A stretch of 34,759 nt of DNA, taken from contig JAJFUG010000018.1 in assembly GCA_021372515.1 (NCBI GenBank), positions 1 through 34,759 on the forward strand. Reading direction: 5' to 3'. Made by a program: the position numbers and the translations under genes. Under the pieces are notes generated by a model. It saw only the letters and a program-made list of their open reading frames with translations. It did no database searches and was not told the origin of the DNA. The DNA comes from a bacterium. Its GTDB lineage: Bacteria; Gemmatimonadota; Glassbacteria; GWA2-58-10. Positions 9,389 through 32,114 of this stretch are shown here, one piece after another. Position 1 is the stretch's first letter. Each line of letters starts with the position of its first letter.

Positions 9389-10702
9389 TCAGCGCAACGC
9401 CGCCCCGCCGTTCTCGTCCTGCGTCTCGCCCTTGATATTGCCCTCGAAAGTGTTCCCGGCCAATTTCACCGAGCTGTCGCCCTTGTACACGTACACGCCG
9501 TAGCGCTGGGTGCGCTCCTCGCCGGAGCGGGTTTCGGCGATACGGTTGTTCTCGAACACTTCATCCTGGTTCGCGGGACGCACCAGCACACCGTAACCTT
9601 CCTGGGCGTTGCCGTTGTCATAGATCTGGTTGTCGCGGAACACGTTGCGGTGGCCGCCCACCAGCGGCTCATCCGGGCGGAAGAACACGCCGCTCGTGCC
9701 GTTGTAGCGGATGACATTGCCGGTGAACAGGTTGTCGCTGTCCTTGTGGCCCACCGAGATGCCGTGGTCGCCGTTGTACTCGATCAGGTTGTCGCTGAAA
9801 GCGCCCAGGCGCACGCGGTAGCAGAGGAAGAACCCGATAGAGCCGTTGTGGTGGAGGTGGCAGCCGCGGATGACCGAGCGGGCGCTGCCGGTGCCGGGGT
9901 GCGCGCCGAACCCGCTGTTGCCGCTGGCCTCGCAATTGGTCACGCTGATACTGTCCGTGATCTGCCACGAGATGCCGTCACCGTTGTAGTTACGGCCCAC
10001 GCAACTGTCCACCAGGCAGGCGCGGCAGTTGAACAGGTAGATCGCGCCGCCGCGGCAGCCGTCCAGCACGTACGGGTTCTGGTCCTTGTTGCCGTCCGCC
10101 GTGATCCCGCGGATGGTCAGGTCGCGCCGTCCGTAGGCCGCAAGCACCGGGAACGCGCTCTCCACCCGCGCCGTGCCGCCCACGTAGTCCAGGTCGCAGA
10201 TCGACCAGTTGCTCAGCTTCAGCGTGTCGCCGTCGATCCGCTCCACCGTGGCGGTCATCACGTTGTAGCCGCCCTCGTCGTTGCGGTCCTTGATCGCCAC
10301 GCCCATGCCGGGCTTGAACTTATCCGGCTCCTCCACGCAGAACAGCTTTTCGCCCCAGTCGCCGCCGTCATGCACCCGGCTGGTCACTGCCGGGGCCTTG
10401 AGCAGGATTGTCTGCCCCGGCTCGCCCAGGATCGTGACCCCGTCCACCGGGATCATCGCGGCGTTGTCCATCCGGTAGGTCCCCGCCTCGATCATCAGGG
10501 TGTCGCCCGGGCGGAGCATGTCCAGGGCTTTCTGGATCGCGGTGTTGTCATCGCCCACCACATCCGCCTGGCCCGATTGCGCCACCCGGATCGTGTGCGG
10601 CCCGGCGGCGGCCGGGGCCTGCCCCTGGGGGCATTGCCCGCAGGCGAGGACAGAAAGGGCGGCAGCCAGCGAAACGAGCAGAACCTGAGTGCGGGTTTTC
10701 AT
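9389..10702 (-). CDS. Right-handed parallel beta-helix lipoprotein (pectate-lyase-like fold)
   Basis: A 437-residue exported protein. It begins with a lipoprotein-type signal ending at VLAC (Cys21), then a linker, then the typical entry of beta-helix proteins (DDNTAIQKALDMLRPGDTLMIEAGTYR), followed by PbH1/NosD-like repeats rich in Asn and Gly (for instance GFGAHPGTGSARSVIRGCHL, NLIEYNGDHGISVGHK, NVIRYNGTSGVFFRP). Such folds are found in polysaccharide lyases, epimerases and glycosidases, and in glycan-binding proteins with no enzyme activity. No lyase catalytic set can be named here. The frame extends upstream to 10789, but the ATG at 10702 starts the signal peptide and has CGGAG about nine bases before it. 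It is divergent from the glycosidase gene at 10961. Confidence 0.82.
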   Translation of the reverse strand: MKTRTQVLLVSLAAALSVLACGQCPQGQAPAAAGPHTIRVAQSGQADVVGDDNTAIQKALDMLRPGDTLMIEAGTYRMDNAAMIPVDGVTILGEPGQTILLKAPAVTSRVHDGGDWGEKLFCVEEPDKFKPGMGVAIKDRNDEGGYNVMTATVERIDGDTLKLSNWSICDLDYVGGTARVESAFPVLAAYGRRDLTIRGITADGNKDQNPYVLDGCRGGAIYLFNCRACLVDSCVGRNYNGDGISWQITDSISVTNCEASGNSGFGAHPGTGSARSVIRGCHLHHNGSIGFFLCYRVRLGAFSDNLIEYNGDHGISVGHKDSDNLFTGNVIRYNGTSGVFFRPDEPLVGGHRNVFRDNQIYDNGNAQEGYGVLVRPANQDEVFENNRIAETRSGEERTQRYGVYVYKGDSSVKLAGNTFEGNIKGETQDENGGAALR

Positions 10703-26029: not shown

Positions 26030-27571
26030 ATGTCGTTCACCTTCGATAAGGATGTCATCGAGGTCCAAAACCTCGACACCATGGCCTCGTTCGCACGTTT
26101 CCACGCGATCAACGCCGGTGTTTTCCTGGACGGGATCATCCTGGCCGAGGATCTGCTGCGCGACAAGGGCGCCATTGTCCTGTCGCATGACACCGAGCTG
26201 ACCCACGAGAATTTCAAGCGCCTGCTCAGCATGCGCGAGGCCAACCCCAAGATCAATTTCTGCTTCCGTCTCAAACGCGGGGACAAGATCCTCGCCAAGT
26301 TCCGCCAGGAAATCATGGAACGGCTGATGGTGATCATGGACCGGCGGATCAAGACCAAGTTGTTCCGTGACCTGTTCTCCCTGGTGAGCGCCGACCTGAC
26401 CGCCGTGGCCGACCTGGCCCTGGCCTCGCCCGACCTGGTGTTGACCGTGCACCAGATGCGGCTGAGCTGCGAAAGCTCGAAACTGAAAAAATCCCTTTCT
26501 TTCCTGGACCAGGCGCTCAATTCGGCGATCCTGGCCCTGGCGCTGACCCGCACCCCGCTGCTGAAAGAATATTTCGGCAACGAGCGCGAGAAAGCGGTGC
26601 CGCTGTTCAGCGCCGCCCTGATCCACAATTACGGCGCGATAATGAACCTGGCGGCCCTGGCGGAGCAGGCGGACCAGGACCGGGCCAAGCTTTACTGGAC
26701 CCTGATCCTGAAAGACCTGAAGAAGATTGAGAAGACGCTCGTGGACGAAAATCTCAGGTACTGCCTGGAGGCCCTGTGCAGCTATCAGCTCGGGCGGCGC
26801 GATTTCGTGACCGGGGAGGATTACCAATCCATCTGCGCCAATATCCTGGTGGTGGTGGAATATTTCCTGCGGCGGGAGTGCGGTTTGTTCGGCGAGCCGG
26901 ATGAGCCGCGCCGGGTGGTGGACCGGATGAATGTCAAAGCCTTCGAGCACCAGCTCAACGACAGGTCGGTCCAGGCGCTCACGCTCAGCCTGAACCTGAA
27001 AGACATATTCGACTTTTACTCCGAGATGGAACGCCTGCTGGCCGAATGCCCCTACGATTCGGCCACGGCTTACCCGCTGACCGGGTTCCGCAGCCCGACC
27101 CTGTTTGTGTGCCGCAAGCGGGTGACCGCCTGCCGCTGGATCGAGCTTTCGGTCCGGGCGGTCAAGCTGATTGTCAAGCTGGGTGAGCTGGCCCCCAACG
27201 ATTACCACCGCTGCAAGCTGCTCACCCCCAAGCTGATGGATTTCTACAGCGAGTTCTACGACGAGATCAAGGAAGAGACCTCCGGCCAGCAGCCCAAAGC
27301 GGTCGAGCCGATCAAGGTCACCGCGGGTCCGCCGCCGGAGAACGCCCCCAAGCCCGGTGAGGTCGCGCCGGCCAAAGCCGGGGAGACGCCGGCGCAGGAG
27401 GGCGTCGCCGAGGCCGCGCCGGCTGCGGAAGCCGCTGGTGGCGACAAGAGCGCTCCATTCAACGACAGCCTGTCACAGATGTTCAACAAGTTGTCGCAGG
27501 AGAACGCATCCAAGGAAGGGGAGCCCTCGGCGGCGAAATCCAAGACCCAGGATACTCCTGCCGCCGGTTGA
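26030..27571 (+). CDS. Degenerate HD-GYP-like protein with Ala/Pro-rich tail
   Basis: A 513-residue cytoplasmic protein without signal or membrane segments. The segment GIILAEDLLRDKGAIVLSHD (about 35-54) resembles the N-terminal module that precedes many HD-GYP cyclic-di-GMP phosphodiesterase domains. The helical core (about 145-310) follows HD-GYP order, but the metal-binding HD of the usual HDIGK is HN (His199-Asn200 in ALIHNYGAIMN). The HHE and GYP motifs are not found. EDYQSICANILVVVEYF aligns with the usual ARIL-VAD helix. The last 110 residues are low-complexity (Ala, Pro, Glu, Lys). If related, it has lost phosphodiesterase chemistry and would be a binding or scaffold protein. The family assignment is my inference from pattern only. 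The ribosome site is weak (GGAAAG). It is convergent with ridA, 28 bp apart. Confidence 0.65.
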   Translation: MSFTFDKDVIEVQNLDTMASFARFHAINAGVFLDGIILAEDLLRDKGAIVLSHDTELTHENFKRLLSMREANPKINFCFRLKRGDKILAKFRQEIMERLMVIMDRRIKTKLFRDLFSLVSADLTAVADLALASPDLVLTVHQMRLSCESSKLKKSLSFLDQALNSAILALALTRTPLLKEYFGNEREKAVPLFSAALIHNYGAIMNLAALAEQADQDRAKLYWTLILKDLKKIEKTLVDENLRYCLEALCSYQLGRRDFVTGEDYQSICANILVVVEYFLRRECGLFGEPDEPRRVVDRMNVKAFEHQLNDRSVQALTLSLNLKDIFDFYSEMERLLAECPYDSATAYPLTGFRSPTLFVCRKRVTACRWIELSVRAVKLIVKLGELAPNDYHRCKLLTPKLMDFYSEFYDEIKEETSGQQPKAVEPIKVTAGPPPENAPKPGEVAPAKAGETPAQEGVAEAAPAAEAAGGDKSAPFNDSLSQMFNKLSQENASKEGEPSAAKSKTQDTPAAG

Positions 27572-30065: not shown

Positions 30066-30621
30066 GCCCAGCTTTGTCCGGTTAGGTAATGTTACGGGCG
30101 AACACAAGGATTGTCCCTGTATGTCTTGACCCAGTCTCACGGCCAAACCTCATGCGGCCGGACGGCCGCCGCTGTTGCCTTTGGGGGCCGCACCTGTTTG
30201 AGCCTGCAGCATGGGCAGCGTGTAATTGCTCGTGAAGAGTCGAAGCTTGAAAGCGCTCCAGCGCACGGCGGCGATTCGCGGCAGCGCAGCCGCTGCACCG
30301 CGGGAGCGGAGCCAAGGCTCAGTAAACACTTAAGGTTGCAGTGGAGATGTGGCCGGGACGAGTTTGCGGCCCCCGCTGGCTTTGCTGCTTTGGCCGAAAC
30401 CAAAGCAGAACAGAATCTTTCGACTTCTCACTGCAAGTCCCTGACCGGACACTACTGCCCTGAGCCACTTTCAGTCCGGCGCCGGACGGAACGGAATTTG
30501 CAACCTTTTCCGGCCAGCTTAGGCTTTCAATCCCAAGGGAACGACAGGCTGCACCGCCCCCCGCGGTCAGTTTCCCGAGATCACGACTGGCAGACATCCA
30601 ACGCGCACAGGGAGGTGTGGC
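30066..30621. other. Intergenic spacer with repeat copy B and a leader for the MDVS genes
   Basis: This 556-bp gap holds the second full copy of the dispersed repeat (30152-30433), a 14-bp palindrome GTCCGGCGCCGGAC (30474-30487), and about 130 bp of unremarkable leader. I see no tRNA, riboswitch or credible ORF other than frames that read through the repeat. Confidence 0.6.
30152..30433 (-). repeat. Dispersed ~280-bp intergenic repeat, copy B (inverted relative to copy A)
   Basis: The reverse complement of this block aligns end to end with 8873-9152, with the same conserved ends and middle and no obvious indel over most of its length. Weaker similarity extends to 30091 (GTTACGGGCGAACACAAGG), matching the far flank of copy A. 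Confidence 0.75.
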
Positions 30622-31293
30622 ATGGACGTGTCCTCGGTCAGTTCTATAGTCACCGCCTTACAATCTTATCTAACCTCGGCTACCTCAAGCAGTTCCGAAT
30701 CGGGGACCACCTCCGGCACACAGAGCGGTTCCGAGACTGAGGGCAGCGGCTCGACCGATCTGGTCCAGCTCAGCGCCCAGGCCAAGGCCCTGGCCGAGGG
30801 CGCCGCCAGCTCGGTCGCCAGCTCGTTTTTTTCGAGCATCGACGCCTCGGACGGCATCTCGATGGATGAACTTATCAGCCTGATGCGGGAAAAAACTACC
30901 AGCCTGCTCGACTACCTCGACAACTCCTCTGATATCTACGGCCTGGACAACTCCTCCCAGACCCAGTTCGGCCTGGACTCCCTGGGCAACGTGAATGTCC
31001 TGAACGGCACCGGCGCGAACAAGTCCGCCTATGAATCCCTGTTCTCGCAGAACAACCAGATGAGCGAGCTGTTCCAGCAGATCAGCTCGCTGGCCTCGAC
31101 TGTCAGCGCCTCGCAGCAGGCGCTCGAATTCCGCGAGGCCTACGAGGCCGACCCCCAGGCCGCGCTCGAAAAGTACTCGTACCTGTTCGACGAGGGCTAC
31201 GACCCCCAGGTGAGCCTGGGCTATTCCGAGGGCTCGCTCCAGGCCTGGCTCACGGGTCAGAACGGGACCGAGGCTCAGCAGATAGTCGCTTAA
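30622..31293 (+). CDS. Protein of unknown function, paralog 1 of a tandem MDVS pair
   Basis: A 223-residue protein with no signal peptide or membrane helix. The first 45 residues are Ser/Thr/Gly-rich and look disordered. A DLVQLSAQAKA motif follows (about 46-56), then a helical middle, a segment rich in Asn/Asp (FGLDSLGNVNVLN), and a C-terminal block (about 160-205): SASQQALEFREAYEADPQ, then YSYLF and LGYSEGSLQAW. The same order occurs in the gene at 31405. The D-x-V-x-L/I-S-x-x-A-K motif recalls short motifs in flagellar and other bacterial small proteins, but I cannot name a family. AGGGAGG lies seven bases before the ATG, within a 14-base leader also present before paralog 2. Confidence 0.78.
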   Translation: MDVSSVSSIVTALQSYLTSATSSSSESGTTSGTQSGSETEGSGSTDLVQLSAQAKALAEGAASSVASSFFSSIDASDGISMDELISLMREKTTSLLDYLDNSSDIYGLDNSSQTQFGLDSLGNVNVLNGTGANKSAYESLFSQNNQMSELFQQISSLASTVSASQQALEFREAYEADPQAALEKYSYLFDEGYDPQVSLGYSEGSLQAWLTGQNGTEAQQIVA

Positions 31294-31320
31294 GACCCGC
31301 ACGCCAGGCGCCCCCCGGAC

Positions 31321-31338
31321 TGTACTGTCTGTACTGTC
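31321..31338. repeat. Two tandem copies of a 9-bp unit
   Basis: TGTACTGTC is repeated twice in direct order between the two paralogous genes. It could be chance, slippage or a binding site; nothing else supports a role. Confidence 0.4.
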
Positions 31339-31404
31339 CATGTCCGCCCTGCGCGCTGCGGCATTCCGGCCGAATTTCAAGCCTTGACACAGGGAGGTGT
31401 GTGC

Positions 31405-32043
31405 ATGGATGTCTCGACGATCGCGTCCGCCTGGGAGACCACCCGGGTCGGCTCCACCAGCGCCGTGGGTTCCGCCGCGCCGCCGGCGGAGGATGAAAAC
31501 GCGAACGTGACCACTCAGGAGGATACGGTCGATATTTCGCCGGAGGCGAAGGACAAAGCCGAGAAGGACCCAGGCGCTCAAGCCAGGGGCCTGTTGGAGA
31601 GTCTCAACATCCTGGATGGATTTTCACCGGAGGCGCTCAAGGAAAAATCCACGGCCCTGAAAGAGGACCTGGATGAACTGTTCCAGCGGGCCGGGATCGA
31701 CACCTCGACCGAGATCAGCCTGACCACGGGCTATGACGGCAGCGTGCTGGTGAGCGGCGAGCACCCGGACAAGGCCAAGATCGAGAAGCTTTTCGCCGAT
31801 AACCCCGAGCTGGCCAACCGGTTCCGCGAGGTGAGCGGCATGGCCTCGATGATCCGCGCCTGCCAGGAGGGTATCGCGTTCCAGAAGGCTTACGCCCAGG
31901 ACCCCGAAGCCGCTGTGGCGCAGTACTCTTACCTGTTCAACGACAATTACCAGCCCCAGTTCAATATGAGCTACACGGAAGATTCGATGTCGTTCTACTT
32001 CACCGACCTGTTCCACCAGGGGCGGCAATATCTGGAGTATTGA
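31405..32043 (+). CDS. Protein of unknown function, paralog 2 of a tandem MDVS pair
   Basis: A 212-residue soluble protein that begins MDVS like its neighbour. It has a low-complexity linker (about 15-38), the motif DTVDISPEAKDKAEK (about 40-54), and helical segments with LLESLNILDGFSPEALKEK. GYDGSVLVSGEHPDKAKIEKLF and DNPELANRF follow, then the C-terminal block GMASMIRACQEGIAFQKAY, YSYLF and MSYTEDSMSFYF. The paralog aligns over the full length, best in the C-terminal 60 residues. The ATG at 31405 follows AGGGAGG and matches the start of paralog 1; the longer frame from 31384 is a TTG overlapping the ribosome site. The two genes are 111 bp apart. Absence of a signal peptide suggests a cytoplasmic role or a non-Sec export route; no function is known to me. 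Confidence 0.78.
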   Translation: MDVSTIASAWETTRVGSTSAVGSAAPPAEDENANVTTQEDTVDISPEAKDKAEKDPGAQARGLLESLNILDGFSPEALKEKSTALKEDLDELFQRAGIDTSTEISLTTGYDGSVLVSGEHPDKAKIEKLFADNPELANRFREVSGMASMIRACQEGIAFQKAYAQDPEAAVAQYSYLFNDNYQPQFNMSYTEDSMSFYFTDLFHQGRQYLEY

Positions 32044-32068: not shown

Positions 32069-32114
32069 ATAACGCCCGGCGGATAACATTGACTATTCAT
32101 TCGCCGGGCGTTAT
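32069..32114 (+). terminator. Perfect 13-bp hairpin after paralog 2
   Basis: ATAACGCCCGGCG (32069-32081) pairs perfectly with CGCCGGGCGTTAT (32102-32114) around a 20-base loop, 25 bases past the stop. Only a weak T-rich tail (GCTATTTAG) follows, so it may be a terminator or an mRNA-stabilising stem. Confidence 0.6.

Follow-up and report, generated by a model that had tools for sequence, protein, structure and literature searches.

Tandem genes P1 and P2 encode an unnamed protein family with a FlgM-type N-terminal motif and a tentative link to flagellar export

The P1 and P2 genes

The window analysed here, a stretch of 34,759 nucleotides from a bacterium assigned to the Glassbacteria (Gemmatimonadota), contains at 30622-32043 the two open reading frames that had been singled out from the sequence alone, which we call P1 and P2 (Table 1). 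They are separated by 111 bases and flanked by genes for a short-chain dehydrogenase and an ABC transporter ATPase. An alternative start of P2, a TTG at 31384, is offered by the ORF list, but the ATG at 31405 is preferred because its ribosome site and the MDVS that follows match those of P1. The claim that 14 identical bases precede both ATGs was borne out: the shared 14-mer ends 2 bases before the ATG of P1 and 3 bases before that of P2, and its core, GGGAGGTGTG, has no further copy within the window. At both positions the 14-mer can be drawn as a small hairpin (CACA/TGTG) with the ribosome site GGGAGG in its loop.

Table 1. Features of the P1/P2 locus (positions in the window)
Feature	Position	Strand	Description
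Weak sigma-54-like element, CGGAACGGAATTTGCA	30487..30502	+	135 bases before the P1 ATG; PWM scan
Ribosome-site leader of P1, CACAGGGAGGTGTG	30606..30619	+	same 14-mer precedes P2
P1	30622..31293	+	223 aa; N-terminus disordered, then DLVQLSAQAK (residues 46-55) and an alpha/beta domain at the C-terminus (~residues 81-211)
P1 FlgM-type motif, D-L-V-Q-L-S-A-Q-A-K	30757..30786	+	regex scan; cf. FlgM of the same genome
Ribosome-site leader of P2, CACAGGGAGGTGTG	31388..31401	+	same 14-mer precedes P1
P2	31405..32043	+	212 aa: disordered N-terminus, DTVDISPEAK (residues 40-49), C-terminal domain (~residues 75-200)
P2 FlgM-type motif, D-T-V-D-I-S-P-E-A-K	31522..31551	+	regex scan; cf. FlgM of the same genome

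P1 and P2 are true paralogs, as had been proposed (BLASTP: 30% identity over 211 aa, 102 bits, E = 9e-32). When either protein was searched against the 4.87-Mb genome the other one was its sole paralog (E ~1e-25), and their likeness is thus above chance. The motifs read by eye are all present in both proteins, namely MDVS, D-x-V-x-[LI]-S-x-x-A-K, LF..N and the C-terminal block Q..[AI].F..AY..DP.AA...YSYLF...Y.PQ. Identity is highest in residues 1-8 (62%), the DxVxxS block (47%) and the C-terminal block (41%). The sequence-only reading had seen strong divergence in the middle of the proteins, but this part is moderately conserved (27-29%), and it is the N-terminal linker (13%) and the C-terminal tail (19%) that diverge most.

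Just 3' of P2, at 32071-32112, two arms of 11 bases (AACGCCCGGCG/CGCCGGGCGTT) form a perfect inverted repeat around a 20-base loop; it has no T run and is possibly a transcript end. Elsewhere in the window (26030-27571) a 513-aa protein with an Ala/Pro/Glu-rich C-terminal tail is encoded, which has no significant Pfam match.

Predicted structures

Structures of both proteins were predicted with AlphaFold2 from an alignment of three sequences. The N-terminus (~residues 1-45) is disordered in both models (pLDDT <50), while confidence in the C-terminal domain is mostly high (pLDDT mostly 74-94 in P2). In P1 as in P2 this domain opens with a helix and a beta hairpin, continues with a short helix, a helix of 32 residues and two more short ones, and closes with a second beta hairpin; with this agreement in topology the unrelated folds that might have spoken against a common family were not seen. 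A fold comparison with the PDB and the viral library BFVD yielded nothing significant.

Identity and distribution of the family

Searches of Pfam, NCBIfam, PDB sequences and fold libraries were all empty, and the P1/P2 family is therefore unnamed, in keeping with its earlier description as an unrecognised soluble family. A known-family identity is ruled out by the Pfam, NCBIfam and PDB sequence searches; the profile search, run as a possible refutation of that description, brought back no characterised family, and a literature search found the family not described. A profile built from P1 and P2 led to a protein of Colwellia (L005). We counted ~19 family members in 397 genomes of the taxonomic family of Colwellia, a few in a 398-genome sample of its phylum and ~10 in 347 genomes of one alphaproteobacterial order. 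Among the 395 genomes searched from the window's own phylum, the family is present in the P1/P2 genome only. Relatives with the C-terminal domain of P1 and P2 are thus patchily spread over Gamma- and Alphaproteobacteria, with horizontal transfer probably involved. One of them, WP_165090114.1, annotated as "hypothetical protein," is encoded on plasmid pA of Methylobacterium. The single-copy alphaproteobacterial relative L093 aligns with P2 over 135 aa at 40% identity (E 3e-34), and a tree groups P1, P2 and L093 without fixing the branching order among the three.

P1 and P2 belong to this family by homology of the C-terminal domain and by the same predicted topology. The domain is common to them and to the relatives from Colwellia, other Alteromonadaceae and Methylobacterium as well as to L093, but P1 and P2 are paired whereas these relatives are single-copy. 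With the start codons of the relatives picked by eye or by rule, those from Alteromonadaceae have an extra N-terminal segment and carry the pattern FxxxPhi in place of DxVxIS, whereas P1 and P2 have DxVx[LI]S.

An origin of the genes in phages or plasmids was considered and rejected: tblastn against phage records gave no significant match, and plasmids yielded one real relative, that of Methylobacterium, and one weak match in Niveispirillum. Two further weak matches, L006 and L068, were rejected as members; they look like chance similarities in frames of other, larger proteins. Three 213-aa proteins (L030, L031 and L034) may be distant relatives. A set of 207-209-aa proteins from Alteromonadaceae (L052, L053 and L054; ORFs near 9719, 17429 and 9173) has the C-terminal block SQEL..F...YEK.RQQALH.YRHF and is possibly another distant relative of the P1/P2 family.

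A FlgM-type motif at the N-terminus

The genome that holds P1 and P2 also encodes a FlgM of 171 aa (L063, G000:C193:1672-2187; 33.8 bits against a Pfam cut-off of 25), which carries DTVTISEQAR at residue 44, and its Pfam FlgM match begins exactly at the D. The segment D-x-V-x-[LI]-S-x-x-A-[KR], a short motif, is thus found at residue 46 of P1, 40 of P2 and 44 of FlgM. Like FlgM (PF04316/TIGR03824), P1 and P2 are small and soluble, have no signal peptide, and carry the motif at residues 40-46 behind a short non-polar start and a disordered linker of ~40 residues. They differ in lacking the C-terminal helices of FlgM, in having a separate alpha/beta C-terminal domain and in lacking a sigma-28 promoter. 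The FlgM profile (PF04316) did not match P1 or P2 even at E up to 10, and they are therefore not FlgM. The FlgM of this genome is itself unusually long, the Pfam profile aligning in two stretches with an insert between them.

Within the family, P1, P2, L050, L071 and L093 have the full D-form of the motif joined to the domain, and L069, L073 and L091 a shorter form, [VF]x[LI]SxxA. Where the family protein lacks the motif, it is found in the product of the adjacent upstream gene at four Alteromonadaceae loci (L005, L040, L043 and L049); these products are otherwise unrelated to the family protein that they adjoin. Among 14 neighbours, four carry the motif, as against two of the other small ORFs (Fisher 5e-4), and 178 small ORFs gave seven matches, one of them spurious, against 0.2 expected from shuffled ORFs. 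Five motif-bearing small proteins (L005 6989-7480, L040 9066-9548, L049 10069-10593, L043 8954-9421 and 14286-14801) have three unrelated C-termini behind the DxVxxS leader and no Pfam or NCBIfam match.

FxxxPhi and the signals of early export substrates

Of the 13 full-length Alteromonadaceae members, 12 conserve FxxxPhi at residues 26-32, and L050 has DTVTISNTAK in its place. FxxxPhi is a loose pattern, frequent by chance in any single sequence, and gains its weight from being retained within the clade. A regex scan of the family found no member with both FxxxPhi and the DxVx[LI]S motif, and P1 and P2 lack the phenylalanine of gate recognition. Early flagellar substrates carry an N-terminal non-polar signal followed, at least 30 residues on, by a docking motif (PMC8983047) with a critical phenylalanine (PMC9307174), and judged by its sequence the FxxxPhi of Alteromonadaceae resembles the FlhB docking signal of rod and hook subunits. 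Following the rule in PMC8983047, we find non-polar residues near the start of both P1 (V3, V6, I9, V10) and P2 (V3, I6, A7), and the spacing of their leaders fits the published layout of signal plus docking site (PMC8983047). The family thus shares with the rod and hook substrates FlgB, FlgD and FlgE (PMC8983047, PMC9307174) a two-part N-terminus with non-polar residues near the start and, restricted to Alteromonadaceae members, an F that is conserved ~26-32 residues in and followed at +4 by a hydrophobic residue. It differs from them in that it has no rod/hook domain, is not encoded with flagellar genes and is patchily distributed, and in that P1 and P2 themselves lack FxxxPhi.

Promoters and co-occurrence with flagellar genes

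TGG-N8-TTGC is the core of the textbook sigma-54 consensus (-24/-12). This element lies at most 110 bases upstream of 14/27 family genes, compared with 6/427 same-locus controls, a difference whose p-value (4e-15) is not blind, since a weight-matrix scan had already brought the element up in these genes; collapsed to lineages the count is 6/13 (p 1.5e-7). Spacers vary among the elements, with GG and TTGC constant, and the element also precedes three of the five motif-bearing neighbour genes. Family genes of Proteobacteria seem to use sigma-54 promoters for their transcription; such promoters often serve flagellar genes, and sigma-54 drives non-flagellar genes as well. This evidence transfers only weakly to the window: the score of the putative sigma-54-like site of P1 in the PWM scan is equalled by 2.9% of control genes and by 17/1000 shuffles, making it suggestive only, and P2 is not preceded by such an element of its own. 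Control by sigma-28 was rejected, since no site was found before P1, P2 or nearly all relatives; here the flgM of the same genome served as a positive control, with a sigma-28-like promoter, TAAA-N16-GTCGATAA, 143 bases upstream.

The P1/P2 genome encodes FlhA (E 1.7e-278) within an export-gate cluster of flhB-flhA-flhF-fliA type, in which FlhB, FlhF and FliA were named by eye from their sequences. Among 80 genomes tested, FlhA was found in all 21 that bear the family and in 41/59 others (Fisher 0.0018, stratified 0.0028); like the other p-values given here, these overstate independence because the genomes and genes are related. Flagella are common among Proteobacteria regardless of the P1/P2 family. 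No flagellar genes were seen beside P1 and P2 or in the inspected neighbourhoods of relatives, and we found no conserved operon except for the motif-bearing upstream gene at the four Alteromonadaceae loci. Five flagellated genomes from the taxonomic family of the P1/P2 genome lack P1 and P2, and the pair is therefore not a core part of the flagellum.

Possible roles of P1 and P2

A flagellar link of the P1/P2 family, which the sequence-only reading had offered as speculation, now seems rather likely: it has gained the FlgM motif, the presence of FlhA in every family-bearing genome tested and the sigma-54-type promoters of relatives. We favour, at a little short of an even chance, an accessory role for P1 and P2 that is linked to the flagellar type III export apparatus, with each protein built from a leader and a family-specific domain, because the layout of the leader matches that of early substrates and because FlgM is itself exported, as a late substrate (PMC13344023). 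In such a scheme the leader, consisting of non-polar residues at positions 3-10, a Ser/Thr/Ala-rich linker of ~35 residues and the FlgM-type D-x-V-x-[LI]-S-x-x-A-K, would dock P1 and P2 at the apparatus; Alteromonadaceae members would dock through FxxxPhi as an FlhB-type signal, and the C-terminal domain would then be exported or act at the apparatus. That family members are indeed exported is conceivable, if on the doubtful side.

The motif could instead merely cap a helix where the linker meets the domain, with the sigma-54 control non-flagellar and P1 and P2 cytoplasmic and unrelated to export. The shortness of the motif, the non-flagellar neighbourhoods and the many roles of sigma-54 are in line with this, but we regard it as unlikely given that FlgM has the same motif at the same position, that the motif recurs in unrelated small proteins adjoining family genes and that FlhA accompanies the family in 21/21 genomes. 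Nor does it seem probable that P1 and P2 are cytoplasmic regulators whose motif binds sigma-28, another sigma factor or an export chaperone, so that they tune flagellar expression without being exported: the motif is common to them and the FlgM of their genome, which apparently encodes FliA, and the family is flagella-associated, but they lack the sigma-28-binding C-terminal helices of FlgM and a sigma-28 promoter, and Alteromonadaceae members keep the domain without the motif. Quite improbable, in our estimate, is the reading, in line with the partnership suggested from the sequence alone, that P1 and P2 would be obligate partner subunits of a heterodimer with different roles. They are adjacent, likely co-transcribed and diverged, and share one predicted fold; relatives are mostly single-copy, however, which argues that the domain needs no partner, and the tree of P1, P2 and L093 lends no support to a local duplication.

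Beyond the accessory role favoured for P1 and P2, the DxVx[LI]SxxA leader, with its motif after ~40 disordered residues, occurs in FlgM, ahead of the P1/P2 domain and in three or more other types of small protein beside or near family genes. It might be a general address tag on several unrelated C-terminal domains, often behind sigma-54-type promoters, that marks overlooked export substrates or regulators of the export gate, an idea we consider somewhat unlikely. If these readings are true, the flagellar export system would gain an unnamed accessory family, and the front end of FlgM would be a reusable leader, not private to FlgM. The role of the conserved DxVxISxxA segment in FlgM would then become directly testable, and a route would open to further overlooked export substrates of flagellated bacteria.

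A consensus sigma-54 element, TGGCACGAGTATTGCC, was also observed at position 3357 of L059 (G000:C103:23357), ~100 bases upstream of a gene whose 721-aa product resembles a pilus-type secretin; this contig is the one with the flagellar export genes.
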